A DNA stretch of 64,000 nucleotides from Micromonospora okii. GTDB taxonomy: Bacteria; Actinomycetota; Actinomycetes; Mycobacteriales; Micromonosporaceae. The notes under the pieces were generated by a model. The model was not told the DNA's origin, did not search any database, and saw nothing but the letters and a program-made list of their open reading frames with translations. Positions 6,265 through 63,478 of this stretch are shown one piece after another; the first letter of the stretch is position 1; each line of letters starts with the position of its first letter. A program made the position numbers and the translations under genes. The DNA lies in the NCBI RefSeq assembly GCF_020884795.1, contig NZ_BBZF01000019.1:126888-190887 (forward strand). The letters are read 5' to 3'.

Positions 6265-7287
6265 GTGCCGATGATCAGTCCCACTCCTCTGATGGGCCTC
6301 GTGGCCGGTGTGTGGGGGTTCAAGACCCTCGCCGTCGGCGTCGAACTCGGCCTGTTCACCCGCCTGGCCGGCGGCCGGACCATGACCGTCGCCGAGGCCG
6401 CCGCCGAGTTCGGCTTCGACGAGCGCCCGGCCGACCTGCTGCTGGCCGCCAGCGCCTCCCTCGGCCTGCTGGTCAGGGCCGGCGACGGCTACCGCAACTC
6501 CGAGCTCGCCGAGCAGTTCCTGGTCGAGGGGCGGCCCTACTACTTCGGCGCGCAGGTCCGCTACTCCGACCTGCGCACCTACCTGCCGTGGCACCGCATC
6601 GGCGACGCGCTGCGCACCAACCGGCCCCTCACCTGGGAGCCGGGGGCGCAGCAGTCGATGTTCGACACCACCGACCCGGAGATGCTGGCGCAGTTCTGGG
6701 ACGCCATGTACTCCACCTCCAGCTTCACCGCCCGCGCCCTGGCCGACGCGTACGACTTCGGCGCGCACACCCGGCTGCTCGACGTGGGCGGCGGGGCCGG
6801 CGCGTTCCCGATCGAGTTCTGCCGGCGGCTGCCGGAGCTGCGCGCCACGATCCTCGACCTGCCGCACGTGTGCGAGCGGGCCCGCGAGCGCGTCGCCGAG
6901 GCGGGGCTGACCGGGCGCGTCGACGCCGTCGCCGGCGACTTCCTCGCCGACCCGGCCCTGCCCGACGGGCACGACGTGATCCTGCTGAGCATGATCCTGC
7001 ACGACTGGGACGAGCCGACCAACCGGGCGCTGCTGGCCAGGTGCCACGCGGCGCTGCCCCCGGGCGGGGCGGTGGTCATCTGCGAGCTGCTGCTCAACGA
7101 CGAGCGCACCGGCCCGCCGGAGGCGGCCCTGATGGGGCTGAACATGCTGGTCGAGACCGAGGGCGGGAAGAACTACTCCCGCGCCGAGTACGCCGCCTGG
7201 CTGGCCGACGCCGGGTTCGTCGACGTGCGCACCGTGTGGTTCGAGGCGCCGGGCGCCAACGGCGCGGTGGTCGGCCGGCGGGCCTGA
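6265..7287 (+). CDS. SAM-dependent methyltransferase (Methyltransf_2 type)
   Basis: 340 residues. An N-terminal winged-helix dimerisation region (about 1-100) is followed by a Rossmann domain with LLDVGGGAGAFPIEF near 172, the acidic residue after strand 2 in TILDLPHV, and LSMILHDWDE near 243; the HD within LHDWDE corresponds to the catalytic base/metal region of this family. Homologues O-, N- or C-methylate small aromatic substrates. It converges on the methyltransferase, kynureninase and dioxygenase operon and is probably the tailoring partner for its aromatic product (inference). Start is GTG 6265 or ATG 6271; no strong ribosome binding site distinguishes them. Confidence 0.85.
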   Translation: MPMISPTPLMGLVAGVWGFKTLAVGVELGLFTRLAGGRTMTVAEAAAEFGFDERPADLLLAASASLGLLVRAGDGYRNSELAEQFLVEGRPYYFGAQVRYSDLRTYLPWHRIGDALRTNRPLTWEPGAQQSMFDTTDPEMLAQFWDAMYSTSSFTARALADAYDFGAHTRLLDVGGGAGAFPIEFCRRLPELRATILDLPHVCERARERVAEAGLTGRVDAVAGDFLADPALPDGHDVILLSMILHDWDEPTNRALLARCHAALPPGGAVVICELLLNDERTGPPEAALMGLNMLVETEGGKNYSRAEYAAWLADAGFVDVRTVWFEAPGANGAVVGRRA

Positions 7288-7297
7288 CCCGGCGGCG

Positions 7298-7327
7298 GGC
7301 CGGGCCGGGCGCAGCCCCGGCCCGGCC
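7298..7327. terminator. GC-rich hairpin between convergent methyltransferase genes
   Basis: A 12-bp stem GGCCGGGCCGGG / CCCGGCCCGGCC with a short loop occupies almost the whole 43-bp gap between two convergent genes. No T-run is present. Position suggests a shared bidirectional terminator. Confidence 0.5.
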
Positions 7328-7330
7328 TGC

Positions 7331-8359
7331 TCACCGCGCGTCGGCCGGCTTGTGCGCGACGACCAGCTCCCAGGCGCCGGGCAGCACCGCCACCCGCTCG
7401 AAGCCGACCTTGGCGAGCAGGGCGGTGTAGAACTCGACCTCCCGCAGCCGGCTGACGCTGCTGTCCACGCCGATGAGGAAGTAGCTCCAGAAGAACTGCA
7501 TCGCCAGCCGGTCCGGGGTGCGGAACTCCTCGCAGATCAGCAGCATCCCGCCCGGGGCGAGCGCCGCGTACGCCCGCTCGACCAGCCCGCGCGCCACGTC
7601 GTCGGGCCAGTCGTGCAGCACCCGGACGAATGACAGCGCGTCGTAGCCGGTCGGCAGCGGCGCGGCGAAGAAGTCGCCGGGAACGAAGCCCAGCCGGTCG
7701 CCGTGGCCGCTGCGGGCCCGGGTGTCCGCGACGAGGGGCGCCACCGCCGGCAGGTTGTAGACGTCGGCGCGCAGGTCGGGGGCGTCGTCGAGGACGCGCG
7801 CGGCGAGGGTGCCGTCGCCGCCGCCGACGTCGAGCAGGCGGCGGCGGCCCGCCCAGAGGGCGCGGGCGTGCCGGTGCACCGCCTCGACGACCGGGCCGAG
7901 CCCGACGGCCATGCTCCGCTCGAAGGCGGCGGTCTGCTCGTCGGTGCGCGGCGGCCAGGCGAAGTCGTCGTCGCTCATGCTGACCTCCCCGCGCAGGGTC
8001 TCGGCCAGCCGGCCGTGCAGCACCCGCCACGGGTAGCGGTCCCGGTCCCGCTCCTGCGCGTCCGGCCCCACCACCGCGACCACGGCGTCGCGCAGCCCGG
8101 GAACGGCCCGGTAGGCGGTCGCGGCGAGGTCGTCGCAGGCGTACCGCTCGACGAAGCCGAGGCTCTCCAGGCAGTCGAGGAACTTGTACAGCCTCGGCGG
8201 CAGCACCCCGAACCGGGTGGCGAGGTCGCCGAGGCGGGCCGGCCCCGGCTCCAGGGCGTCCAGCAGCCCCATGCCGAGGGCGGTCTCCAGCACGTCCATG
8301 GCCTTGGGCCCGTTGGCGAGCAGGCTCATCAGCGCCCGGGGCGACAGGGTGACGGTCAT
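7331..8359 (-). CDS. SAM-dependent methyltransferase, possibly C-methylating (kynurenine-pathway type)
   Basis: 342 residues. N-terminal helical/winged-helix domain (about 1-110), then LLDVGGGDGTLAARV near 180, VYNLPAV for the ribose-binding acidic strand region, FVPGDFF, and VRVLHDWPDD near 257. The fold is that of methyltransferases acting on aromatic metabolites; relatives in actinomycin-, sibiromycin- and tomaymycin-type pathways methylate a 3-hydroxykynurenine ring, and this gene's overlap with a kynureninase gene makes such a role plausible, though not shown. The ATG overlaps the kynureninase stop (ATGA), so the two are co-translated. Last gene of the minus-strand operon. Confidence 0.85.
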   Translation of the reverse strand: MTVTLSPRALMSLLANGPKAMDVLETALGMGLLDALEPGPARLGDLATRFGVLPPRLYKFLDCLESLGFVERYACDDLAATAYRAVPGLRDAVVAVVGPDAQERDRDRYPWRVLHGRLAETLRGEVSMSDDDFAWPPRTDEQTAAFERSMAVGLGPVVEAVHRHARALWAGRRRLLDVGGGDGTLAARVLDDAPDLRADVYNLPAVAPLVADTRARSGHGDRLGFVPGDFFAAPLPTGYDALSFVRVLHDWPDDVARGLVERAYAALAPGGMLLICEEFRTPDRLAMQFFWSYFLIGVDSSVSRLREVEFYTALLAKVGFERVAVLPGAWELVVAHKPADAR

Positions 8360-9534
8360 CGGCCCAGCTCCTTCTCCAGCGCGTCCATGAACGCGTCGAC
8401 CTCGTCGAGGGTGTTGTAGACGTGCGGGCCGACCCGCAGGTAGCCCCGCCAACTGCAGATCACGTCCCGCTCGGCGAGCCGGCGCTTGACCGTCTCCCCG
8501 TCGGGCACGTCGAGGCACACGACGCCGCCGCGCCGGCCCGGCTCGGTCGGGCTGACCACCGTCACGCCGGCCGCCGCCGCCCGCTCCACGATCCGGGCCG
8601 TGCACGCCAGCGAGTGCCGGCGGATCGCGTCGACCCCCACCCCGGCCAGCAGGTCCAGGCCCACCTGGGAGACCAGCGAGGTGAGCGGGAACGGGGTGCC
8701 GCCGGCGAACCGCTGCGCACCGGGCGCCCAACCGGTCGACGGCTGGAAGGTCAGCGCCCGGTCGCCGGCCTGCCAGCCGGTCGCCGCCGGTTCCAGCTCC
8801 GACGCGAGGTCCGGGCGGACGTAGAGGAAGGCGGTGGCGATCCCGCACAGCCACTTGTGCGCGCCGCCGAGGACGACGTCGACGCCGAGCGCGGTGACGT
8901 CCAGCGGCACGATCCCGACGGTCTGGAAGGCGTCGACGACCACCAGCGCACCGACGTCGTGGGCGCGGGCGACCAGTCGCGGCAGGTCGAGGGTCGCGCC
9001 GGAGGTGAAGCTGGCGTGCGGCACGCACACCAGCAGCGTCCGCTCGTCGACGCGCCCGCACAGGGCGTCCTCGTCGAACAGCGGGCCGCCGGAGCCGACC
9101 ACGTCGAGTTCGGCCCCGTACCGGCCGAACGCCTTCCAGACGAACGGCACGGTGGGGAACTCCAGGTCGGTGGTGACGACCCGGTTGCGCGGGGCGCGGT
9201 AGTCGAAGCAGGAGGCGACCCGGGCCAGCAGGGTGCTCAGGTTCGTGTCGGTGACCACGCTGCCCGCCGGCGCGCCGATGAACGCGGCCAGCGAGTCGGC
9301 GTACCGGTCGAGGCCGACGTGCCAGCCCTGCCACACGTCGTCGCGCCAGGTGCGCAGCGTCCGCCCGTACTCCGCCAGCACCCGCTGCGCGCCCCGGGGC
9401 ACCGCGCCGGTGGAGTTGTTGTTCAGGTAGACGCCGGTCTCCAGCAGGGGGAACTCGGCGCGCAGGGCGGCGTGCGCGGCGGCGTCGAGGCAGCGCGCCT
9501 CGTCGGCCGCCGGTCGCGGGTCGGGTGCGCTCAC
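8356..9534 (-). CDS. Kynureninase-family PLP enzyme
   Basis: 392 residues, class V aminotransferase fold. Visible features: GVYLNNNSTGAVP at the start of the domain, VVVDAFQTVGIVPLDV with the PLP-contacting Asp (D201), and GGAHKWLCG with the probable Schiff-base lysine K227; late segments FAGGTPFPLTSL and RVGPHVYNT parallel kynureninase positions (CGTQPITSL, and the RxxxxPLYxT region). Kynureninases split kynurenine or 3-hydroxykynurenine to (3-hydroxy)anthranilate and alanine. GGAHKW differs from the usual kynureninase GCTYKY, so altered substrate use is possible. GTG start at 9534 overlaps the upstream stop (GTGA); the open frame running to 10797 is a shadow. Confidence 0.8.
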   Translation of the reverse strand: MSAPDPRPAADEARCLDAAAHAALRAEFPLLETGVYLNNNSTGAVPRGAQRVLAEYGRTLRTWRDDVWQGWHVGLDRYADSLAAFIGAPAGSVVTDTNLSTLLARVASCFDYRAPRNRVVTTDLEFPTVPFVWKAFGRYGAELDVVGSGGPLFDEDALCGRVDERTLLVCVPHASFTSGATLDLPRLVARAHDVGALVVVDAFQTVGIVPLDVTALGVDVVLGGAHKWLCGIATAFLYVRPDLASELEPAATGWQAGDRALTFQPSTGWAPGAQRFAGGTPFPLTSLVSQVGLDLLAGVGVDAIRRHSLACTARIVERAAAAGVTVVSPTEPGRRGGVVCLDVPDGETVKRRLAERDVICSWRGYLRVGPHVYNTLDEVDAFMDALEKELGR

Positions 9535-10847
9535 GCGGGGCAGCCTCCGGTCTCCTCGCGGGACGACGCCGGCCACGGGCCGTGGCCGACGGTGGTGAAG
9601 ACCGGCACGGAGCGGGCGGCGGCCAGGTAGGGCGTCCCCTCGGTGTAGCCGGTGCCGGGCTGGTCGCCGAGCATCCGGGTGGCCAGCCGGTGGTGGGTGC
9701 GGCGCCACTGGAGCAGGGCCGCCGCGAACTCGCCCATCCGCCGCCGCACCAGGTCGCGGTCGGGCCCGGCCAGCCGGCCGTCGCGCACGGCCGTCCGGTA
9801 GGCGGCGTCGATCGTCGGCGCCCCGGCGAGCACCCCGGCCCGCACCTCCGGCACCGAGCGGTAGGCGGCCGAGGCCAGCCGGGCCCCGTCGGGGGTACGG
9901 CACAGCGACTCCACCAGCTTGTAGGAGCGGGACTGGATGGCGCTGGCCCCCTCCGTGTACGCCCGGAACGTGCGGAACGACTCCGGCTGCATGGTGGCCA
10001 GCAGCGAGAAGAGCGGGCCGGCGGCGGCGAGCTGGTCCCGGGCGTGGGTGAGCCGGTCGGCGGCCGGCCGCGCCCGGCCCCGGGCCACGTCGCCGACCGC
10101 CGCGCGCAGCTCGTCGGCGAGCGCCGCGAAGACGCACTCGTACGCCTGGAGCACCCGGATGAACAGGTACTCGTCGTGCGACACGTACACCGGCAGCATG
10201 GTCAGCCGCAGGATCCGCTCCTCGGCGGCGGTGCGGTCGGCGCGGGCGAGGGCGGTCAGCGCCGCCGCCGCTGCCTGCGGTCGGGAGCCCTCGGGCGGCG
10301 CGACCAGGCCGAGGCGGGTCAGCGCCGGCGCCGCCGCCCGGACCCCGAGCCGGTGGCGCTTGGCCACCAGCGCCGGGCCGGGGCGCTGCTCGGGCAGCAG
10401 GCTCGTGGCCCCGGCCCCGGCGGCCAGTTCGAACGCCAGCGCGTCGGCGATGAGGCGGACCAGGAGCCGGTCGCGTTCCCGCCGCCCGCCGTCCGGGTCG
10501 CCCGCCGTGTTCCCGTCCCCGGTGGGCAGCCCGAGCAGGGGCAGCCCGAGGTAGCTGCGGTAGTCGTACCGGCCGTCCCACTTGTCGAGGGCGACGTCGA
10601 GGAAGTCGCGCAGCAGCCGGGCGGGGCCCGGCCGCCCGGCGGCGTCCGGGCCGCCACGGGCGGCGGGAAGCTGCGCCCGGATCTCGTCGAGAAGGGCGAG
10701 CAGTTCCTTTTCGACGAAGTGTTTGCCGACCCGGTGGAACTCGGCCAGCACGGCGGGGTAGGGAAAATTGTCGGGGTCGGAAAAGCCGGACACCCAACTC
10801 GTCAGCTCACGCACGAACCGCACCTCGACATGACGTTTGTGTGGCAC
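9531..10847 (-). CDS. Tryptophan 2,3-dioxygenase superfamily protein, long form
   Basis: 438 residues. The C-terminal half contains three blocks that align with heme TDO: YVSHDEYLFIRVLQAYE (TDO: HDExLFIxxHQxYE), LATMQPESFRTFRAYTEGAS followed by QSRSYKLVE (TDO: L..MTPxDFLEFRxxLxxASGFQSxQFRLxE), and WRRTHHRLATRMLGDQPGTG (TDO: WRxRHxxxVxRMIGxKxGTGG), where the second-block RxxH supplies the heme ligand. An N-terminal 180-residue extension with DKWDGRYDYRSYLGLPLL is beyond the ordinary TDO length of about 280. Expected reaction: oxidative opening of the indole ring of tryptophan or an analogue. GTG start at 10847, 28 bases after the short paralogue. Confidence 0.78.
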   Translation of the reverse strand: MPHKRHVEVRFVRELTSWVSGFSDPDNFPYPAVLAEFHRVGKHFVEKELLALLDEIRAQLPAARGGPDAAGRPGPARLLRDFLDVALDKWDGRYDYRSYLGLPLLGLPTGDGNTAGDPDGGRRERDRLLVRLIADALAFELAAGAGATSLLPEQRPGPALVAKRHRLGVRAAAPALTRLGLVAPPEGSRPQAAAAALTALARADRTAAEERILRLTMLPVYVSHDEYLFIRVLQAYECVFAALADELRAAVGDVARGRARPAADRLTHARDQLAAAGPLFSLLATMQPESFRTFRAYTEGASAIQSRSYKLVESLCRTPDGARLASAAYRSVPEVRAGVLAGAPTIDAAYRTAVRDGRLAGPDRDLVRRRMGEFAAALLQWRRTHHRLATRMLGDQPGTGYTEGTPYLAAARSVPVFTTVGHGPWPASSREETGGCPA

Positions 10848-10875
10848 ACGGACGGTGGGAGGCGGGGCGTTCCGG

Positions 10876-11592
10876 TTACGGCAGATGGGGCGCGGAATGG
10901 TCGTCCGTCGGCTCGTCGGCGGTGCTCGTCCGGGCCCGCCACAGCTCGGGGAAGAACCGGTGCTCGATCAGCTTGGCGAGCATGGTCGCCGGGCTGCCCT
11001 TGGTGCCGGCGGGGGCGTGGCCGCCGATGCGGACGGCGACCTGGTAGTGCCGCACGCGCCAGAACGAGACCCGCTCGTCCCACTCGACCATCGCCTCGGC
11101 CAGCCGGTGCAGCGGGTCGGTCGGCGTCGCCGCGGCGAGCGCCGACAGCTCGATCCGCCGGGCGGCGAGGTGCTCGCAGAACGCCCGGCCGAGCTGCCGG
11201 CTGGCGCCCTGGACCCGCCGCCAGCCGGGTGATTCGGCCCCGGAGCCGTTGCCGAGCGCGGGCTGCATCGCCTGGAAGTCGGCGGGGGAGAGGTAGCGGA
11301 ACATCTCGAGCTGGTCGGTGACCAGTCGCACCCCGAGCGTCGCCCGGGTGATCAGCGGCTCCGCCGCGGCCGGGTCGCCGGCGTCGATCCGGCACGCCGC
11401 CTCGGTCAGCTCGGCCTCCGCGAGCTTGAGCCACAGCTCGGCGGACTGGTGCACCACCTGGAAGAGCAGTTCGTCGCGGTGGATCATCTGCCCCGGAGGC
11501 CGCTGGAGGTCCAGCAACGCGTCCGTGCGCATGTAGCGCGCGTAGTCCGTGTCGCCGTCGCCGGGCAGCACGGCAGAATGGTCCCGCTTCAC
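10876..11592 (-). CDS. Tryptophan 2,3-dioxygenase superfamily protein, short form (MarE-like)
   Basis: 238 residues. RDELLFQVVHQSAELWLKL matches the TDO N-terminal substrate/heme block; MFRYLSPADFQAMQPALGNGSG and SPGWRRV replace the usual FRxYLxPASGFQSxQFR, as in the divergent heme-dependent aromatic oxygenase branch that includes MarE; FWRVRHYQVAVRIGG holds the probable proximal histidine, and GTKGSPAT replaces GTGGSSG. It may therefore not be an ordinary N-formylkynurenine-forming TDO. First gene of the minus-strand operon; GTG at 11592 preceded by GAGGGG is chosen over the longer frame to 11763, whose extra residues show no homology. Confidence 0.75.
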   Translation of the reverse strand: MKRDHSAVLPGDGDTDYARYMRTDALLDLQRPPGQMIHRDELLFQVVHQSAELWLKLAEAELTEAACRIDAGDPAAAEPLITRATLGVRLVTDQLEMFRYLSPADFQAMQPALGNGSGAESPGWRRVQGASRQLGRAFCEHLAARRIELSALAAATPTDPLHRLAEAMVEWDERVSFWRVRHYQVAVRIGGHAPAGTKGSPATMLAKLIEHRFFPELWRARTSTADEPTDDHSAPHLP

Positions 11593-11799: not shown

Positions 11800-12528
11800 T
11801 CAGCCCGGCGGCGCGGGCCGGGGTGCGCCGGCGACGCGGTCCAGCCACTCCGCGAGCAGGGCCTTCTCGGCCGCCGTCAGCCCCGTGGCGAGCCTCGGCA
11901 GCGCGGCCCGCAGCGCGACGGCGTGCCGCACGGCGGAGCGGGGGTCCGGCCCGGGGGCGGCGCGGGCGATGGGGCTGTCGGTGGCCACCGCCGCGATCAC
12001 CGCCTCCCGGGTCGCCGCCGACAGGGCCGGGTCGCGCTCGGGCGGCGCGACGCGCAGCAGGGCGAGGGTCACCCCGGACGCGGCGGCGTGCGTGATCCCG
12101 GTGGCCCGGTCGACGGGGACGCGCAGCCGGCCGGCCTCGGCCACCCGCTGCACGAGCTGGCCCAGGATGTCGCCGGCCACCCGGGCGGCGGTCGGCTGCT
12201 CGCCGGGGCGCGGGTCGCCGTACATGAGGGCGTAGCAGGCGGGGTCGGCGAGGCCGAACTCGACGTGCAGGTCCCAGCCCTGGCGCAGGGCGTCCACCGG
12301 GTCCTCGGCGGGTTCGTGGGAGGCCTTGGAGTGCAGGTACGCGGCGAAGCCGTAGCTGGCGGCGGCGTCGAGCAGCCCCCGCATGTCTCCGAACTGGCGG
12401 TAGAGCGTGGGCGCCTGCACCCCGGCGGCCCGCGCGACGGCCCGGGTGGAGACCGCCTCCCGGCCGCCCTGGGCGAGCAGCGCCGCGGCGGCCCGCACGA
12501 TCCGGTCCCGGGGCGACGTGTCGATCAT
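11800..12528 (-). CDS. TetR-family transcriptional regulator
   Basis: 242 residues. N-terminal helix-turn-helix (about 8-55) with ALLAQGGREAVSTRAVARAAGVQAPTLYRQF split over helices 1-3, the classical TetR signature; the C-terminal all-helical ligand domain has no identified family beyond TetR_C. The gene points the same way as the dioxygenase operon, 208 bases upstream of it, and may control it or itself. The region just upstream of its start (12531-12575) is AT-rich for this genome and contains repeated GATCATGA and an imperfect dyad CGCT-N6-AGCG, a possible operator. Confidence 0.9.
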   Translation of the reverse strand: MIDTSPRDRIVRAAAALLAQGGREAVSTRAVARAAGVQAPTLYRQFGDMRGLLDAAASYGFAAYLHSKASHEPAEDPVDALRQGWDLHVEFGLADPACYALMYGDPRPGEQPTAARVAGDILGQLVQRVAEAGRLRVPVDRATGITHAAASGVTLALLRVAPPERDPALSAATREAVIAAVATDSPIARAAPGPDPRSAVRHAVALRAALPRLATGLTAAEKALLAEWLDRVAGAPRPAPPG

Positions 12529-30268: not shown

Positions 30269-31843
30269 ATGACGACTCCCTCGACGTTGTATCGCGGCGG
30301 CGTGCTGCACTGTCCGGCTGATCCGAGTGCGTCGGCGTTGCTGGTGCGTGACGGTCGGATCGCCTGGTTGGGTGCGGCGGCGGACGCGCCGCGCGCCGAC
30401 CGGGTGGTGGAGCTGGGCGGCGCGTTGGTGACGCCGGCGTTCGTGGACGCGCACGTGCACGCGACGGACACCGGGTTGGCCCTGTCGGGTCTGGATCTGT
30501 CGGCGGTGCGGTCGGCGGGTGGGTTGTTGGAGGCGGTGGCGGGGTTCGCGGCGGGGTTGCCGGCGGATGCGGTGGTGTTGGGGCACGGCTGGGACGAGTC
30601 GTGCTGGTCGGAGCCGGTGCTGCCGGGGGCGGCGGAGTTGGGTCGGGCGGCGGGTGGGCGGCGGGTGTACCTGTCGCAGGCGTCGATTCATTCGGCGTTG
30701 GTGTCGTCGGCGATGGTGGCGGCGTGTCCGGAGGCGGCGAGGGCGGCGGGGTTCGACGCGTCGGGGTGGTTGCGGCGGGACGCGCACCATGTGGTGCGGG
30801 CGGCGGCGTTGGGGTCGGTGACGCGGGGGCAGCGGGTGGCGGCGCAGCGGGTGGCGTTGGCGCACGCGGCGTCGTTGGGGATCGCGGCGGTGCACGAGTG
30901 TGGTGGGCCGGAGATCTCGGACGAGGAGGACTTCACGGGGCTGTTAAGCATTTCGGGTGCCGGGTTGCCGGAGGTGTACGGGTACTGGGGTGAGCTGTTG
31001 GGCGCCGCGAAGGCCCGGGAGTTGGGTGCGGTGGGTGCGGGCGGTGACCTGTTCGCGGACGGGGCGTTGGGGTCGCGGACGGCGCACGTGTCGGAGGCGT
31101 ACCTGGATGGGGAGCCGGGGGCGTGTGGGCACGGGTACGTGAGCGCGGAGCAGGTGCGTGACCACCTTCTGGACTGTGTGGCGCACGGGGTGCAGGGGGG
31201 TTTCCACGCGATCGGTGACGCGGCGATCGGCACGGTGCTGGCGGGGTTCGCGGCGGCGGCGCGGAAGGTGGGCGTGGAGCGGTTGCGGGCGGGGCGGCAC
31301 CGGGTCGAGCACGCGGAGATCATGGGCAAGCGGTTGATCGCCGGGTTCGTGGAGTACGGCATCGTGGCGTCGGTGCAGCCCGCGTTCGACCGGTTGTGGG
31401 GTGGCGCGGGCCGGATGTACGAGTCGCGGCTGGGTCTGTCCCGGTCGTTGGAGTCGAACCCGATGGGCGCCATGCACGGGGTGGGGGTGGCGTTGGCGTT
31501 CGGGTCGGATTCGCCGGTGACGCCGCTGGACCCGTGGGGGTCGGTGCGGGCGGCGGCGTCGCATCACAACCCGGTGCAGCGGATGAGCGTGCGGGCGGCG
31601 TTCGCGGCGCACACCCGGGGCGGGTGGCGGGCCGTGCACCTGGACAACGAGGGCGTGCTGGCTCTGGGCGCGCCGGCGACGTTCGCGGTGTGGGACACCC
31701 CGGCCGGGGTGGAGCGGGGTCTGCCGGTGTTGCAGGCCGAGGACCCGGAGGCGCGCGGCGCGGAGGACCCGACGCCGCTGCCGGTGTGCCGGGCCACGGT
31801 GTTGCGCGGTGACGTGATCTATCAGGAGGGCACTTCCACGTGA
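30269..31843 (+). CDS. YtcJ-like metal-dependent amidohydrolase
   Basis: 524 residues. Metal-binding PAFVDAHVHATD near 53-64, AIGDAAIG with HAIGD near 310, HRVEHAEIM near 335, FGSDSPVTPLDPW near 410 and a C-terminal composite beta domain with APATFAVWD. This is the composition of YtcJ/LaaJ-type amidohydrolases that hydrolyse amides or N-acyl compounds. It is embedded in the lysine operon between kdd and kamD, where kce is often found, and so may process a pathway-linked amine or its acylated form (inference). Leucine TTG and G-ending codons are very frequent. Confidence 0.88.
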   Translation: MTTPSTLYRGGVLHCPADPSASALLVRDGRIAWLGAAADAPRADRVVELGGALVTPAFVDAHVHATDTGLALSGLDLSAVRSAGGLLEAVAGFAAGLPADAVVLGHGWDESCWSEPVLPGAAELGRAAGGRRVYLSQASIHSALVSSAMVAACPEAARAAGFDASGWLRRDAHHVVRAAALGSVTRGQRVAAQRVALAHAASLGIAAVHECGGPEISDEEDFTGLLSISGAGLPEVYGYWGELLGAAKARELGAVGAGGDLFADGALGSRTAHVSEAYLDGEPGACGHGYVSAEQVRDHLLDCVAHGVQGGFHAIGDAAIGTVLAGFAAAARKVGVERLRAGRHRVEHAEIMGKRLIAGFVEYGIVASVQPAFDRLWGGAGRMYESRLGLSRSLESNPMGAMHGVGVALAFGSDSPVTPLDPWGSVRAAASHHNPVQRMSVRAAFAAHTRGGWRAVHLDNEGVLALGAPATFAVWDTPAGVERGLPVLQAEDPEARGAEDPTPLPVCRATVLRGDVIYQEGTST

Positions 31844-31920
31844 GTGAGCTTGCGAGCGGACCATCGGCACGGCACGGGCGCCGGTACGGCGTCGCCGAGC
31901 GCGGCGGGGTGACGGCGTGA
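31840..31920 (+). CDS. Possible 26-residue coupled ORF
   Basis: Starts with GTG overlapping the amidohydrolase stop (GTGA) and ends in the GTG of kamD (GTGA again). The beginning GTGAGTGAGCTTGCGAGCGG resembles a recurring GAGCxxGCGAGC-type word in actinobacterial start regions and may be a repeat instead of a protein. Low support. Confidence 0.2.
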   Translation: MSELASGPSARHGRRYGVAERGGVTA

Positions 31921-33476
31921 CGGGCAAGCTTGGGCTGGATCCGGCTTTGGTGGCGCGGGCGCGGGAGTTGGCGCGCCGGGCCGGGCAGCCGGTGGTGGAG
32001 CTGGCGCGCAGCCACACCACGGTGTCGGTGGAGCGGGCGGTGCTGCGGCTGGCCGGGGTGAGCGGCGCCGATCCGGACGGCATCCCGTGGGTGAACCGGC
32101 TGGTGGACGCGGTGGTCGCCGACGTGGGTCTGGGGCACGGGGTGGCGCTGCCGGTGTTCGACGCTTGCGCGCGGGAGCAGATCGGTGACGTGACGCTGCT
32201 GGCGCAGAAGGCCGCCGCCGGGTCGGTGCGGTTCACGCAGCCCACCGGCAGGGCCGCCACCGCGGCCCGGCGGGCGGCCCGGAAGGCGGTCGCCGTGGGC
32301 GTGCGGCGGATCGACCGGCGGCGGGCGGAGCGGGACCGGCTGGTGCGGCGGTTCGGGGATCCGAGGCAGCGGCCGTGGATCTACCTGATCGTGGCGACGG
32401 GGGACATCTACGAGGACATTCCGCAGGCGCAGGCGGCGGCGCGGGCGGGCGCGGACGTGATCGCGGTGATCCGGTCGACGGGGCAGTCGTTGTTGGACTA
32501 CGTGCCGGAGGGGGCGACGCGGGAGGGGTTCGCGGGGACGTACGCGACGCAGGAGAACTTCCGGTTGATGCGGGCGGCGTTGGACGAGTCGTCGCGGGAG
32601 TTGGGCCGGTACGTGCGGCTGACGAACTACGCGTCGGGGTTGTGCATGCCGGAGATGGCGGCGCTCGCGGGCCTGGAGCGGCTGGACATGATGCTCAACG
32701 ACTCGATGTACGGGATCCTGTTCCGCGACATCAACCCGATCCGGACGTTCGTGGATCAGCGGTTCTCGCGGCAGGTGCACGCGCGGGCGGGGATCATCAT
32801 CAACACCGGTGAGGACAACTACCTGACCACGGCGGATGCGGTGGACGAGGCGCACACGGTGACGGTGTCGCAGTTGCTCAACGAGTACTTCGCGCACGAG
32901 GCGGGGTTGGCGGACTGGCAGTTGGGGTTGGGTCACGCGTTCGAGATCAACCCGGAGGTGCCGGAGTCGTTGCGGTTGGAGTTGGCGCACGCGTTGTTGG
33001 CGCGGGAGTTGTTCCCGGAGGCGCCGTTGAAGTGGATGCCGCCGACGAAGCACATGACCGGTGACGTGTTCCGGGGCAACCTGCTGGACGGGTTCTTCAA
33101 CCTGGTGGGGGCCATGACGGGGCAGGGGATTCTGCTGGTGGGGATGATGACGGAGGCGGTGGTGACGCCGTGGCTGTCGGACCGGGACATCGCGTTGCAG
33201 AACGTGCGGTACGTGCTGGGTGCGGCGGGGGGGTTGCACGAGGACTTCGTGCCGGCGTCGGGCGGTTTCATCCAGCAGCGGGCGCACCGGGTGCTGGGGG
33301 AGGCGGTGGACCTGCTGGACCGGATCGGGGATCAGTCGCTGTTGACGGCGATCGCCGAGGGCACGTTCGGGATCATGAAGCGGCCGGCGGATCGGGGCAA
33401 GGGCCTGGACGGGGTGGCGCGGCACGAGGCGGGCTACTACAACCCGGCCACGGAGATCCTGGAGCAGCCGTCATGA
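31917..33476 (+). CDS. kamD: Lysine 5,6-aminomutase alpha subunit
   Basis: 519 residues. Family landmarks include LARSHTTVSVERAVLRLAG, WIYLIVATGDIYEDIPQAQ, DVIAVIRSTGQSLLDYVPEG, QENFRLMRAAL, ASGLCMPEMAALAGLERLDM and INTGEDNYLTTADAV, spanning the substrate- and PLP-binding TIM barrel. With KamE it moves the 6-amino group of beta-lysine to C5 using adenosylcobalamin and PLP. GTG 31917; overlaps by 4 bases with both neighbours (GTGA, ATGA). Confidence 0.95.
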   Translation: MTGKLGLDPALVARARELARRAGQPVVELARSHTTVSVERAVLRLAGVSGADPDGIPWVNRLVDAVVADVGLGHGVALPVFDACAREQIGDVTLLAQKAAAGSVRFTQPTGRAATAARRAARKAVAVGVRRIDRRRAERDRLVRRFGDPRQRPWIYLIVATGDIYEDIPQAQAAARAGADVIAVIRSTGQSLLDYVPEGATREGFAGTYATQENFRLMRAALDESSRELGRYVRLTNYASGLCMPEMAALAGLERLDMMLNDSMYGILFRDINPIRTFVDQRFSRQVHARAGIIINTGEDNYLTTADAVDEAHTVTVSQLLNEYFAHEAGLADWQLGLGHAFEINPEVPESLRLELAHALLARELFPEAPLKWMPPTKHMTGDVFRGNLLDGFFNLVGAMTGQGILLVGMMTEAVVTPWLSDRDIALQNVRYVLGAAGGLHEDFVPASGGFIQQRAHRVLGEAVDLLDRIGDQSLLTAIAEGTFGIMKRPADRGKGLDGVARHEAGYYNPATEILEQPS

Positions 33477-33586
33477 GCGAACGCACCGAGCGAAGCGAGG
33501 GCCATGAGGGCATGCCCAGCCAGCACGGCATGAGCGAACGCACCGAGCGGAGCGAGGGCCGTGAAGGCATGCCCGGCCAGCACGGC
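33473..33586 (+). repeat. 57-bp tandem duplication at the kamE start
   Basis: Units 33473-33529 and 33530-33586 differ at only four positions and both start with ATGAGCGAACGCACCGAGCG. Each encodes MSERTERSEG followed by EGMPxQHG. The result is three successive in-frame starts, the first overlapping the kamD stop. Confidence 0.9.
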
Positions 33587-34339
33587 ATGAGTGAGAAGAA
33601 GATCGTGCGGCCGTACGGGGACACCACGGGTGACGGCATGGTGCAGGTGTCGTTCACGTTGCCGGTGCCGCACGACAAGCGGGCCGAGGGCGCGGCGGTG
33701 CAGTTGGCGAACAGGATGGGCATCGACCCGGCGATGTTGGTGCACGCGAAGCCGGTGGGTGACGAGTTCACGTTCTTCGTGGTGTACGGACGGGTGAACC
33801 ATCTGGTGGACCTGGGCGCGGTGCGGGTGGTGGAGCGGGACTTCCCGCTGTTGTCGGCGAAGGAGGTCAACACCGTCGTCAAGCAGCGGTTGCGGCGCAA
33901 GTTGTCGGTGGTGGGGGCGTGTATCGGCACGGACGCGCACACGGTGGGCATCGACGCGATCCTGAATGTGAAGGGCATCGCGGGGGAGAAGGGCCTGGAG
34001 TACTACCGGGAGTTGAAGGTGACGAACCTGGGTGCGCAGGTGGGGGTGCCGGAGCTGGTGGAGGCGGCCCGGGTGGAGCGGGCGGACGCGGTGCTGGTGT
34101 CGCAGGTGGTGACGCAGCGCGACGCGCATCTGCACAACACGCGGGAGATGTCGGCGGCGTTCCGTGAGGCGATGCCGGCGGGGCGGCGTCCGTTGCTGAT
34201 CGTCGGTGGGCCCCGGTTCGACGAGTCGATGGCCGGTGAGTTGGGTGTGGACCGGATCTTCGGTCGGGGCACGACCCCGGGTGAGGTGGCCAGTTACCTG
34301 GTGCACGCGTTGGTGACGAACAGGAGGGTGAAGGCGTGA
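33473..34339 (+). CDS. kamE: Lysine 5,6-aminomutase beta subunit
   Basis: 288 residues from the first ATG. Core: KKIVRPYGDTTGDGMVQVSF, then the cobalamin site GTDAHTVGIDAILN (DxHxxG) and KGIAGEKGLEYY, and NLGAQVGVPELV. KamE carries the B12 and the lysine that holds PLP. The first 38 residues are two near-identical 19-residue units (MSERTERSEG...), each beginning with Met, so translation may start at 33473, 33530 or 33587; the third gives the usual family N-terminus MSEKKIVRPYGD. Confidence 0.93.
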   Translation: MSERTERSEGHEGMPSQHGMSERTERSEGREGMPGQHGMSEKKIVRPYGDTTGDGMVQVSFTLPVPHDKRAEGAAVQLANRMGIDPAMLVHAKPVGDEFTFFVVYGRVNHLVDLGAVRVVERDFPLLSAKEVNTVVKQRLRRKLSVVGACIGTDAHTVGIDAILNVKGIAGEKGLEYYRELKVTNLGAQVGVPELVEAARVERADAVLVSQVVTQRDAHLHNTREMSAAFREAMPAGRRPLLIVGGPRFDESMAGELGVDRIFGRGTTPGEVASYLVHALVTNRRVKA

Positions 34340-34728
34340 GTGATTCCCGGGTGGGTCTGACGGTGACCCATCGCCGGTATGTGCCGTACTCGCACGCGCA
34401 CTACGCGGGGAACCTGGTGGACGGGGCGTACGCGTTGGGGTTGTTCGGGGATGTGGCCACGGAGGTGTGCATCCGCACCGACGGCGACGAGGGGTTGTTC
34501 GCGTCGTATTCGGATGTGCAGTTCCGGGCGCCGATGAAGGCCGGTGACGTGTTGGAGGTGGTGGCGACGGTGACCCGGGTGGGCACCCGCAGCCGCACGA
34601 TCGACTTCGAGGCGCGGGTGGTGTGCCGGGGTCGGCCGGACCGGTCGGCGTCGGCGGCGGAGGTCCTCGCCGTGCCGGTCGTGGCGGTGACGGCGACCGG
34701 CACGGTGGTCGTGCCGCCGGTGGCGTGA
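34336..34728 (+). CDS. kal: 3-aminobutyryl-CoA ammonia-lyase
   Basis: 130 residues, hotdog fold. THRRYVPYSHAHYAGNLVDGAYALGLFGD and FRAPMKAGDVLEVVATVTRVG are typical of Kal. It eliminates ammonia from 3-aminobutyryl-CoA to give crotonyl-CoA, the last dedicated step of the lysine pathway. GTG 34336 overlaps the kamE stop; its own stop overlaps the next GTG. Confidence 0.93.
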   Translation: MSDSRVGLTVTHRRYVPYSHAHYAGNLVDGAYALGLFGDVATEVCIRTDGDEGLFASYSDVQFRAPMKAGDVLEVVATVTRVGTRSRTIDFEARVVCRGRPDRSASAAEVLAVPVVAVTATGTVVVPPVA

Positions 34729-36059
34729 GCGTCGCCGTCTGCGTCGACGTCGGGTCGACGTACACGAAGGCGGCGGTGGTGGATCTGGAGGCGGGTCGGC
34801 TGGTGGGTGCCGGGTCGGCGCCGACGACGGTGGGTTCGGATGTGCTGCGGGGCCTGGACGCGGCGGTGGCGGCGGCGACGGCCGGGCTGGGTGTGCGGGG
34901 CGCGCCGTGGTACGTCTGTTCGTCGGCGGGTGGTGGGCTGCGCCTGGCGGTGGTGGGCTACGAGCCGCTGGTGACGGCGCAGGCGGGTCGGCGGGTGGGT
35001 TTGTCGGCGGGGGCGAACGTGGTGCACGTGGCGGCCGGCCGGTTGGGCGGGGCGCAGGTGGCGGCGTTGCGGGCGGCCCGCCCGGACGTGGTGTTGCTGG
35101 TGGGTGGCACCGACGGCGGTGACGGCGAGACGGTGACGCACAACGCGACGCGGTTGGCGCGGGCGCGGTGGCGGGTGCCGGTGGTGTTGGCGGGCAACGT
35201 GGACGTCCGCGACGAGTTGGGTGCGTTGCTGGCCGGGGCGGGGGTGCCGGTGACGGTGGCGGAGAACGTGTTGCCGCGCATCGGGGTGTTGGCGCCGGCG
35301 TCGGCGCGGGCGGCGATCCGGGAGGTGTTCCTGCGGCACGTCATCGGCGGTAAGCGGTTGTCGCGGGGGCCGCGGTTCGGCAGGTTGGTGCGGGCGGCGA
35401 CCCCGGACGCGGTGCTGGGCGGGGTGGAGGTGCTCGCCGACGCGCTGGGCGGGGACCTGGCGGTGGTGGACGTCGGTGGGGCGACGACGGACGTGTACTC
35501 GGTGTTGACGCCGGACGAGCGGGCCGGCGGGCCGGGGCGGGAGGTCGCGGGGTCGCTGTGGCGGGCCCGCACCGTGGAGGGGGATCTGGGGGTGCGGTGG
35601 AGCGCGCCGGGGGTGTTGCGGGCCGCCGCCGAGGAGCGGCTGCTGGCCCCGGGTGAGGAGGCTAGGCTGGCCGCGGCGGCGGCGGTGCGGGCCGCGGAGC
35701 CGGGTTTCCTGCCTTCCGACGAGGCGGGGCGGGCGGTCGACGCGCGGTTCGCGGCCCTGGCGGCGACGGTGGCGTTGCGGCGGCACGCGCGCGGGGCGGG
35801 GACCGGGGAGCGGGCGGGCCGGGACCTGCGGGACGTGCGGCTACTGGTGGGTTCGGGCGGGGTGCTGCGTCACGCGGCGGCGGTGGACGCCGCCGGGGTG
35901 CTGGGTGGGGTGTTGGCCGACCACGGTGGTGGGTGGCCGTTGCCGCGCGCGGCGCGGCCGGTGGTCGACGTCGACTACGTGTTGGCGGCCGGTGGGTTGC
36001 TGGCAGGGGAGCATCCGGTGGCGGCGCGGGCGTTGCTGCGGCATCACCTGGATCGCTGA
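34725..36059 (+). CDS. MutL/GlmL-family reactivase-like protein
   Basis: 444 residues. ASKHA-type ATPase: CVDVGSTYTKAAVVDLE (phosphate 1) near 4-20, VVLLVGGTDGGDGETV near 120, VVDVGGATTDVYSV (phosphate 2) near 248, and VGSGGVLRHA near 393. GlmL/MutL homologues accompany adenosylcobalamin mutases and are thought to help assembly or reactivation; in clostridial lysine operons this role is assigned to KamB. Last gene of the operon, joined by GTGA to kal. Codon use is strongly G-ending. Confidence 0.88.
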   Translation: MSVAVCVDVGSTYTKAAVVDLEAGRLVGAGSAPTTVGSDVLRGLDAAVAAATAGLGVRGAPWYVCSSAGGGLRLAVVGYEPLVTAQAGRRVGLSAGANVVHVAAGRLGGAQVAALRAARPDVVLLVGGTDGGDGETVTHNATRLARARWRVPVVLAGNVDVRDELGALLAGAGVPVTVAENVLPRIGVLAPASARAAIREVFLRHVIGGKRLSRGPRFGRLVRAATPDAVLGGVEVLADALGGDLAVVDVGGATTDVYSVLTPDERAGGPGREVAGSLWRARTVEGDLGVRWSAPGVLRAAAEERLLAPGEEARLAAAAAVRAAEPGFLPSDEAGRAVDARFAALAATVALRRHARGAGTGERAGRDLRDVRLLVGSGGVLRHAAAVDAAGVLGGVLADHGGGWPLPRAARPVVDVDYVLAAGGLLAGEHPVAARALLRHHLDR

Positions 36060-62329: not shown

Positions 62330-63478
62330 GGCGGGGTCAAGGTGTGAGTGCAATCGTTAGGGTGCGATGAGTTGTGCGAGGCGTTGGGCTGGTGTGTTCC
62401 AGCCCAGCGTTTCGCGGGGTCGGGTGTTGAGTTCGTGGGCGACTTCGTCCAGGCCGTTTTGGTCGATGGTGCGGAAGTCGTAGCTGCTTTTGGGGAAGTA
62501 CTGGCGTAGGAGCCCGTTGGTGTTCTCGTTGGTGCCGCGTTGCCAGGGGCTGTGGGGGTCGCAGAAGTAGACCGGGCAGCCGGTGGCGATGCTGAATTGC
62601 GGGTGGGTGGCCATCTCGGTGCCCTGGTCCCAGGTCAGTGATCGGCGTAGGTGCGCGGGCATGCGGGTGGTCAGGTCGGTGAGTACGCCGATGACGGCTT
62701 CGCTGTCGCGGCCGTGGGGCAGGGCGCCGAGCATCACGTAGCGGGTGGCTCGTTCCACGAGGGTCACGATCGCTGAGGCTCCCGCCTTGCCGATGACCAG
62801 GTCACCTTCCCAGTGCCCGGGCACCGCCCGGTCGGTGGCCTCGGCCGGCCGGCTACTGATGTGCAGGTCCCCGATCCAGGGCCGCCGGCTGCGGGCGGCA
62901 CCCGCGGCACGTGACTGCGGGCGCCGGCGGGTGCGGCCCGACCGTAGCGCCACCTGCCGGCCCAACTCCGCTCGCAGGTTGCCCCGCGACTGCACGTAGA
63001 TCGCCTGGTAGATCGTCTCGTGGGACACCTGCAACTCCGGCCGGTCAGCGAACGTGGCCCGCAACCACGCGGCGATCTGCTTCGGAGACCACCTACGGGC
63101 CAGTTTCCCCGCCACCACCTGCCGCAGCCGCCTATCCACCGCCAGCTTCGACCGCGCCGGCCGCCGCCTGGCCACGTCAGCCCGCCGCTGTGCCCACTGC
63201 GCCTGATACCCCCACCGATACGGGCGGCGAGCCCGCCCAGACGGCAACGACCGCCCGAGCGGGTTCTTCGTCCCGTGCCGCGCACTGTTGTTCCGCGCCA
63301 CCTCCCGCGACACCGTGCACACCGGCACGCCCACCACCGCCGCGATCTGCGAAATCGTGCGACCCGAAGCCCACAAATGCTCCAACACCTGCCGATGCCC
63401 GAACGTCAACACACCCGGCCTCGCCACCACAACCTCCAGCCCAACCAAGATCAGTTGCACTGAAGCCTAGAAACCGCC
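62330..63478 (-). mobile_element. IS30-family insertion sequence, complete
   Basis: 1149 bp. Left end begins GGCGGGGTCAAGGTGTGAGT, right end complements GGCGGTTTCTAGGCTTCAGT; the ends agree at 18 of the first 24 positions, finishing with AGTGCAA in both. The element is flanked by a 3-bp duplication TCT (62327-62329, 63479-63481), the IS30-family size. It encodes one transposase (62357-63460). Insertion is recent enough that the target gene is otherwise intact on both sides. Confidence 0.93.
62357..63460 (-). CDS. IS30-family transposase
   Basis: 367 residues. N-terminal HTH (FGHRQVLEHLWASGRTISQIAAVVG), then DDE catalytic core: HWEGDLVIGKAGASAIVTLVERATRY holds the first Asp, SLTWDQGTEMATH the second, and SPWQRGTNENTNGLLRQYFPK the Glu. 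All three are present, and the frame is uninterrupted, so it may be active. GTG start at 63460. Spans 96 percent of the element. Confidence 0.95.
   Translation of the reverse strand: MQLILVGLEVVVARPGVLTFGHRQVLEHLWASGRTISQIAAVVGVPVCTVSREVARNNSARHGTKNPLGRSLPSGRARRPYRWGYQAQWAQRRADVARRRPARSKLAVDRRLRQVVAGKLARRWSPKQIAAWLRATFADRPELQVSHETIYQAIYVQSRGNLRAELGRQVALRSGRTRRRPQSRAAGAARSRRPWIGDLHISSRPAEATDRAVPGHWEGDLVIGKAGASAIVTLVERATRYVMLGALPHGRDSEAVIGVLTDLTTRMPAHLRRSLTWDQGTEMATHPQFSIATGCPVYFCDPHSPWQRGTNENTNGLLRQYFPKSSYDFRTIDQNGLDEVAHELNTRPRETLGWNTPAQRLAQLIAP

Follow-up and report, generated by a model that had tools for sequence, protein, structure and literature searches.

A 64,000-nucleotide stretch of the Micromonospora okii genome (contig NZ_BBZF01000019.1, positions 126,888 to 190,887, hereafter the window) raises the question of why two different proteins of the tryptophan 2,3-dioxygenase (TDO) superfamily are encoded next to a kynureninase-like enzyme and methyltransferases, and whether they act in one pathway. 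Positions 6271-11592 of the window hold two COMT-type methyltransferase genes, one class V pyridoxal phosphate (PLP) enzyme gene and two TDO-family genes. The most notable feature of the locus is that the two TDO-superfamily proteins, here called TDOS and TDOL, are inherited as a pair. The genes are as follows.

10876..11592, minus strand: TDOS, short TDO-superfamily (MarE-like) protein of 238 aa, first gene of the cassette, GTG start at 11592
9531..10814, minus strand: TDOL, long TDO-superfamily protein of 427 aa, with an N-terminal part whose model resembles the small domain of PrnB and indoleamine 2,3-dioxygenase (IDO)
8356..9534, minus strand: KYN, kynureninase-like class V PLP enzyme of 392 aa
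7331..8359, minus strand: MTB, COMT-type methyltransferase of 342 aa
6271..7287, plus strand: MTA, second COMT-type methyltransferase, convergent on the cassette, a minority partner

Transcription on the minus strand runs in the order TDOS, TDOL, KYN, MTB, with 61 bases between TDOS and TDOL and 4-base overlaps between TDOL and KYN (9531-9534) and between KYN and MTB (8356-8359). The start of MTA is at 6271 (ATG) or 6292. The first-pass annotation had placed six genes here, the sixth for a regulator upstream, and Pfam and NCBIfam assigned all of them, at the same positions, to the same broad families. Its TDOL start at 10847 gave way to 10814, the most likely start from sequence comparison, because the same M-x-E-L-T stretch opens many relatives.

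Our tentative reading, held with considerable reserve, is that the cassette is a self-contained secondary-metabolism pathway, located at chromosomal sites that vary from species to species. TDOS and TDOL, a nearly obligate pair, would open the indole of tryptophan (or a close derivative) to give an N-formylkynurenine-type product, KYN would split off alanine to leave a (formyl)aminobenzoate, and MTB, together with MTA where present, would cap this to a small methylated anthranilate-type compound. The data establish the genes and their families, coupling, joint inheritance and residue patterns; every reaction, the order of the steps, any TDOS/TDOL heteromer and the product are inferred.

Joint inheritance of TDOS and TDOL

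In total, 354 Micromonosporaceae genomes were searched with the single TDOL protein (E <=1e-50) and with a TDOS profile (E <=1e-40); the first scans scored 4 (TDOL) and 7 (TDOS) candidates per genome, so some genomes may be missed in the counts. TDOL was found in 79 genomes and TDOS in 79, with both in 75, TDOL only in four (G034, G043, G067 and G193), TDOS only in four (G211, G242, G254 and G300) and neither in 271 (P-value = 1.7e-66, Fisher test, kinship ignored). The cassette is therefore patchy. Scoring of every candidate revealed no TDOL in any of the four genomes with TDOS only. In the four TDOL-only genomes the TDOS profile gave only weak split matches (best E 2e-12 to 1.5e-19), such as the ordinary TDO of the genome would give, and in G067 TDOL has beside it only a 28% TDOS-like neighbour. 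Furthermore, across 83 loci the pairwise distances among TDOS sequences and those among TDOL sequences show a correlation of 0.925. In the 40 loci that also contain KYN, the correlations are 0.907 for TDOS-TDOL, 0.75 for TDOS-KYN and 0.77 for TDOL-KYN, and over 15 loci of the window type the values are 0.94, 0.85 and 0.84, respectively.

Loci were taken from TDOL matches of the 354-genome search down to about 1e-16. The longer loci numbered 68 (L079-L138 and L203-L210), every one from a G-numbered genome, and TDOL stood alone in 11 of them. Six of the genomes concerned (G156, G271, G176, G214, G096 and G099) have TDOS-KYN-MTB elsewhere in the genome, at a distance of about 118-165 kb in four Micromonospora genomes (G156, G271, G176 and G214); in G096, MTB was seen only as two short pieces. 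The remaining TDOL-alone loci were L102 (G193), L103 (G043), L105 (G034), L134 at a contig end and the distant L137 (32%). TDOL lies at one common genomic place in G156 (L093), G271 (L096), G176 (L091), G214 (L131) and G193 (L102), which looks like a single relocation, and G193 has lost, or never had, TDOS. Genes were called with a codon-usage caller, which missed TDOL in L091 and L102 despite an open frame, and the TDOL of G214 was read as two pieces in different frames. G300 has, in the interval that separates TDOS from KYN, a stretch of 50 residues (42% identity) that may be left over from a TDOL. A break of the G300 TDOS by a TGA was ruled out, the frame being open to its normal end.

These solitary copies bear on an alternative, which we consider somewhat unlikely, that TDOS and TDOL are two consecutive, independent heme oxygenases. 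One would open the ring and the other would hydroxylate the resulting kynurenine-type product, replacing the flavin 3-monooxygenase, after which KYN would yield a hydroxyanthranilate and MTB would O-methylate it. The distance of TDOL from TDOS in six genomes and the occurrence of each protein alone in four are in line with such independence. However, TDOS-KYN-MTB without TDOL in G211, G300, G242 and G254 would leave MTB without a phenol, unless another hydroxylase serves.

Conservation of the cassette

A TDOL scan of named genomes gave 26 loci, 19 of them from Micromonosporaceae; these contigs overlap in species with the G-numbered genomes, so that the loci are not independent. The order TDOS-TDOL-KYN-MTB was present in 17/19 Micromonosporaceae loci, the two exceptions being L044, where the contig ends after TDOL, and L055, with only a KYN fragment. 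The 4-base overlap was kept in 15/17 loci for TDOL/KYN and in 16/17 for KYN/MTB. Identity to cassette relatives in other species is about 71-85% for KYN and about 70-85% for MTB. The flanking gene families of the window are common to L038, L039, L040 and L062, another flank set is common to L043, L046 and L048, and ten loci (L041, L042, L045, L047 and L049-L054) show neither of the two sets and share just scattered families. The cassette is thus kept together while its surroundings change; because the order recurs in other species with different flanks, the four-gene arrangement is not due to chance.

In this way, the occurrence of the unit outside the source genome, which the first-pass annotation had left to be checked, could be confirmed in other Micromonosporaceae species, and its description as a compact, self-contained tryptophan/kynurenine-type unit without an adjacent nonribosomal peptide synthetase (NRPS) or polyketide synthase (PKS) held: no gene of NRPS or PKS size was called in the window, where the largest called protein has 931 aa. 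Its view of the immediate neighbours fared less well, and the pairing of TDOS and TDOL was not highlighted in it. MTA adjoins the cassette in 5/26 named-genome loci (L039, L040, L043, L046 and L048), a minority. The remaining neighbour is given below.

11800..12528, minus strand: TetR-type regulator, PF00440 (TetR_N) match of 52.3 bits

This regulator is adjacent in the window, and its relatives were seen only in the source genome's own loci, with none in the fetched loci of other genomes. It was rejected as a cassette partner on that ground and is probably outside the conserved unit.

TDOL was detected at 1e-30 in 9/394 genomes drawn from the class, the source genome included. In a plasmid collection five records match TDOL, and the only one from outside the actinomycetes is from Neorhizobium, with 25.9% identity over 45%. 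The cassette would be a common, self-contained Micromonospora pathway for which we know of no assigned product. Among the matches listed from PubMed Central titles and abstract beginnings, none described a paired TDO-family system or this cassette.

Family assignment and residue patterns

Both TDOS and TDOL belong to the heme-dependent aromatic oxygenase (TDO/HDAO) superfamily by a PF03301 match (64.6 bits for TDOS and 53.2 for TDOL, the latter scored as a longer 438-aa reading, against a cut-off of 34.9) and by the axial heme-ligand His. The enzyme names of the first-pass annotation stood at the level of broad families, but the two dioxygenases and the kynureninase (TIGR01814, see below) stayed under the curated cut-offs of the enzymes so named. 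For TIGR03036, the tryptophan 2,3-dioxygenase equivalog, TDOS reached 106.5 and TDOL 62.8 bits against 390.7. In a tree of 70 rows (every third sequence, 69/205, plus one reference), TDOS and TDOL each formed one side of a fully supported branch; the branches are long and the placement of the reference is unsure.

Residues below are numbered after what we take to be the Xanthomonas TDO scheme. Neither chain of the window combines, as expected of TDO, the carboxylate-binding Arg117 with the distal His55: TDOS has Gln for Arg117 and TDOL has Leu for His55. Among 99 distinct TDOS sequences, Y24, Y27, F51, the distal His and the axial His were each present in 99/99, S124 in 97 (T in 2) and a G-T/S-x motif after the axial His in 90/99, while position R117 was Q in 55, R in 39, K in 3 and V in 2. 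Among 106 distinct TDOL sequences, R117, S124 and the axial His were present in all 106, Y24 in 101 (N in 3, gap in 2) and a GTG or GSG loop in 105/106; the distal-His position was Leu in 105/106 and a gap in one. Ser takes the place of the distal His in the other PF03301 protein of the source genome; not every family member needs this His, which alone is therefore a weak criterion.

The state of TDOS R117 follows gene architecture. Arg occurred in 0/42 window-type loci (TDOS-TDOL-KYN, with MTB/MTA in view or not) and in 29/29 loci in which KYN separates TDOS from TDOL (plain, linked to nitric oxide synthase or linked to a flavin hydroxylase). TDOS-KYN-MTB loci without adjacent TDOL had Q in 7, V in 2 and R in 2, loci seen as TDOS-TDOL only had R in 8 and Q in 7, and unclassed loci had Q in 2. 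The two R-bearing sequences among the TDOS-KYN-MTB loci are those of G242 and G254, both without TDOL; G211 and G300, also without TDOL, carry Q. In window-type loci the distal His is thus retained by TDOS, which has Q/K/V at R117, and R117 by TDOL, which has Leu at the distal His. Their joint inheritance, and the Arg of TDOS in G242 and G254, where TDOL is missing, make a single enzyme composed of TDOS and TDOL plausible. Two separate enzymes would fit G211 and G300, and the full-length likeness of TDOL to PrnB and IDO, about as well. The description of TDO and MarE in PMC11904535 is that of single-protein enzymes of the homotetramer type. A divergent pair in which one member lost Arg in one lineage and the other has no distal His offers a case for studying active-site roles and the division of labour in the superfamily.

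Three other patterns were considered and set aside. Loss of the carboxylate Arg from TDOS holds for the window-type lineage only and is no family-wide rule (R in 39/99 overall). A TDOL without the N-terminal Tyr arm was ruled out, as the alignment shows YxxY at residues 85-88. The apparent lack of loop Thr254 in TDOS (0/99 by column) is an alignment effect, given the G-T/S-x motif in most sequences, and only the last Gly of GTG differs generally.

For the consecutive-oxygenase alternative, it is favourable that the heme His is kept in both proteins (106/106 in TDOL and 99/99 in TDOS) and that some HDAO superfamily members oxygenate compounds derived from tyrosine (PMC11904535).

Predicted structures

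AlphaFold models were built from 27 (TDOL) and 26 (TDOS) sequences, with a predicted local distance difference test (pLDDT) score of 86.6 for TDOL and 78.5 for TDOS, and both predicted models have the TDO/IDO/MarE/PrnB helical-bundle fold (Foldseek and VIA-align). The TDOS model is nearest to MarE, the 2-oxindole-forming HDAO of maremycin, aligning near full length (Foldseek E 3.6e-8; VIA Z 20.6, root mean square deviation (rmsd) 6.3 over 214 residues, 23% identity); against TDO it scored Z 17.6 (rmsd 2.9 over 186 residues). TDOS keeps Tyr24, Phe51, His55 and the axial His of MarE, the roles of MarE Tyr24', His55 and Arg118 being those given in PMC11904535. Unlike MarE, TDOS is accompanied by TDOL, and the window-type TDOS has Q/K/V for the carboxylate-binding Arg.

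For the TDOL model, Foldseek gave weak E-values, the best being 1.6e-4 to TDO. By VIA it scored Z 16.7 to TDO over 213 residues in the C-terminal half (191-415), Z 16.5 to PrnB over 263 residues spanning 14-411 and Z 16.0 to IDO1 over 273, which are ties within 1. Judging by its model, TDOL seems to combine a catalytic part of the TDO type with an N-terminal region that resembles PrnB and IDO. The alignments to PrnB and IDO cover 263-273 residues between 14 and 412 at 11-15% identity, whereas by sequence TDOL matches TDO. Like TDO, TDOL keeps Arg117, the GTG/GSG loop and the axial His, and both proteins exceed the PF03301 cut-off; they differ from TDO in falling far below the equivalog cut-off, in the Leu and the long N-terminal part of TDOL and in the presence of two paralogues together.

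A TDOL model that is PrnB/IDO-like over nearly its full length beside a MarE-like TDOS would suit two consecutive oxygenases. The same models lend something to another explanation, which we regard as unlikely: the pair would make another oxidised tryptophan, by MarE-like formation of 2-oxindole or by PrnB-like rearrangement, the ring would stay unopened and KYN would be a different PLP lyase. For this, MarE is the nearest structure to TDOS, and PrnB ties with TDO for TDOL.

Kynureninase-like protein and methyltransferases

KYN contains PF00266 and PF22580 (KYNU_C), and its best match by sequence in the PDB is the Pseudomonas-type kynureninase 1qz9 (E 2e-40). It scored 77.2 bits against the 246.4 needed for TIGR01814, the kynureninase equivalog. 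In numbering that is presumably that of human kynureninase, the 58 window-type KYN sequences have V (49), I (8) or M (1) for Asp168, Q (58) for His253 and H (56), N (1) or S (1) for Tyr275, while the equivalents of PLP Lys276, Asp250, Trp305 and Arg434 are kept in 58/58 each. Of 32 other KYN copies, 31 have no D168/H253/Y275 and one has them (L063, a locus without a TDOS match); two of the 32 also have no Trp. Because of the missing residues and the score below cut-off, KYN may carry out another PLP reaction. The departure from kynureninase at three positions favours a different lyase acting on an unopened ring, but the equivalents of the PLP Lys, the Asp, the Trp and the carboxylate Arg of KynU are present in KYN, as is the KYNU_C domain.

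MTA and MTB are COMT-type by PF00891 (150 and 78.4 bits against a cut-off of 22.3) and by an LHDW motif with the catalytic His in 24/24 MTA/MTB sequences. The best PDB match of both is RedM, the COMT-type N-methyltransferase of reductasporine (E 3.5e-52 for MTA, which also matches SibL at E 1e-36, and E 1.1e-24 for MTB). Unlike MTA and MTB, RedM carries Ser253 at the position of the catalytic His found in most of the family, and O-methylation is the usual activity of COMT-type enzymes (PMC10784701). Because this His, absent from RedM, is present in MTA and MTB, their sequences favour O-methylation without proving it, which would agree with a hydroxylated substrate as expected from consecutive oxygenases. 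The His counts in favour of the proposed pathway as well.

Related clusters and known pathways

In Streptomyces, Nonomuraea and Acrocarpospora, the genes that come after TDOS-KYN-TDOL encode a flavin aromatic hydroxylase, a class IV aminotransferase and a PF04199 protein, as assigned by Pfam in the Nonomuraea copies. The four Streptomyces loci of this type add an ATP-grasp gene and trpE, trpG and trpD type genes (Pfam run on L056); one Streptomyces locus, L061, is cut after the hydroxylase. A Pfam scan of 10 proteins neighbouring the cassette in the window included neither a kynurenine 3-monooxygenase nor a formamidase, as had been noted at first pass. The 4-methyl-3-hydroxyanthranilate pathway (sibiromycin/actinomycin type), which we take to be defined by these two enzymes, therefore has no counterpart among the cassette neighbours. 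Outside the cassette, a single PF04199 (KynB-type) match was found in the source genome, on contig 12 (the genome-wide search did not extend to formamidases of the amidohydrolase type or to flavin hydroxylases), and both steps exist in sister systems, where a flavin hydroxylase and PF04199 adjoin the pair's relatives in Streptomyces-type clusters.

Because the sister clusters hold PF04199, flavin hydroxylase and trpE/G/D-type genes with the pair, a tryptophan/kynurenine route is indicated. KynB-type and hydroxylase genes, typical of that route, thus speak against an unopened ring, and a separate flavin hydroxylase besides TDOL in the fuller pathways speaks against TDOL or TDOS as the hydroxylating enzyme. 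Conversely, in Streptomyces loci L034, L035 and L058, TDOS-TDOL directly follows a condensation-peptidyl carrier protein (PCP) gene beside NRPS genes, without KYN, as would be expected if the pair made an oxidised tryptophan. The pair after the condensation-PCP gene spans 9468-13206 in L034, a linear Streptomyces plasmid, and 7585-11293 in L058.

Judged by family names alone, TDO plus kynureninase, the cassette could be taken for a redundant operon of kynurenine catabolism that supplies anthranilate or NAD metabolism. We disfavour this as highly improbable. A true kynureninase (407.3 bits, above the cut-off) is already encoded on contig 31 of the source genome, immediately preceded by a further PF03301 protein (166 bits), so the cassette is not its only kynurenine route. 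Moreover, the cassette carries methyltransferases, has a patchy distribution (79/354) and sits in different flanks.

A closely related described logic is that of the mycemycin cluster (MymB, C, D, Q) and of sibiromycin SibL/SibP, in which a TDO, a kynureninase and a SibL-type methyltransferase lead to a methylated anthranilate (PMC5867642). The mycemycin cluster is described there with one TDO, an amidohydrolase, halogenases, a salicylate synthase and adenylation and carrier proteins, whereas the cassette has two divergent TDO-family proteins and no amidohydrolase or assembly line beside them.

Weighing of the proposed pathway

Several results weigh against ring opening by the pair followed by removal of alanine and methylation. 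The window-type KYN is without D168, H253 and Y275 in 58/58, with 77 of 246 bits, and the model of TDOS is nearest to that of a monooxygenase making 2-oxindole. TDOL occurs without TDOS (G034, G043 and G193, and G067 with its 28% neighbour) and TDOS without TDOL (G211, G300, G242 and G254). The intact Gln-form TDOS of G211 and G300, without TDOL, contradicts compensation by TDOL for the lost Arg, and in other architectures TDOS R117 is kept in 29/29 despite the presence of TDOL. Additionally, the cassette has no dedicated ring hydroxylase or formamidase, and COMT-type enzymes mostly O-methylate (PMC10784701). That G300 joins G211 in having an intact Gln-type TDOS and no TDOL slightly weakens the pathway reading, which we take as a possibility short of an even chance, and slightly strengthens independent action of the two oxygenases, a lesser one.

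Operons linked to nitric oxide synthase

Among 22 longer Micromonospora-type loci with TDOS-KYN-TDOL and no hydroxylase, 10 have an adjoining nitric oxide synthase (NOS) oxygenase gene, which is downstream on the same strand in nine (L106, L111, L113, L115, L116, L117, L119, L121 and L126) and upstream on the other strand in one (L114). In a plasmid locus of M. zamorensis (L036), NOS and a globin-domain gene lie upstream of TDOS-KYN-TDOL.

L036, 6449-7708: NOS oxygenase gene, beside the TDOS-KYN-TDOL operon

Only adjacency was counted here: genome-wide co-occurrence of NOS was dropped as a link, NOS being present in 164/354 genomes, and some 87 kb separate the cassette from the NOS gene of the source genome itself. 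To judge from these neighbours, NO-dependent chemistry by the TDO-superfamily proteins of the NOS-linked operons is possible. A paper on NOS-guided mining (PMC10831120) names P450 partners, and the word dioxygenase is absent from its main text. In a broader view, TDOS/TDOL would be a two-component heme system used in at least four contexts (with methyltransferases, with NRPS, in fuller kynurenine-type clusters and with NOS), and the NOS-linked pair would use NO and nitrate its substrate. Taken as a whole, this is improbable. The two-component half has good comparative support, and the nitration half is read only from the operon neighbourhood. If true, the NOS-linked operon would be a candidate for a new route to nitroaromatics.

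Other features of the window

Elsewhere in the window, positions 30344-36059 encode proteins of the lysine 5,6-aminomutase alpha and beta types, together with a MutL-type (PF13941) protein and an amidohydrolase. At the start of the aminomutase beta-type gene, a 57-base sequence is present in two tandem copies (33469-33582, 91% alike), which encode a repeated SERTERSEG-type peptide. A gene at 62357-63028 carries a transposase-type rve integrase core domain.

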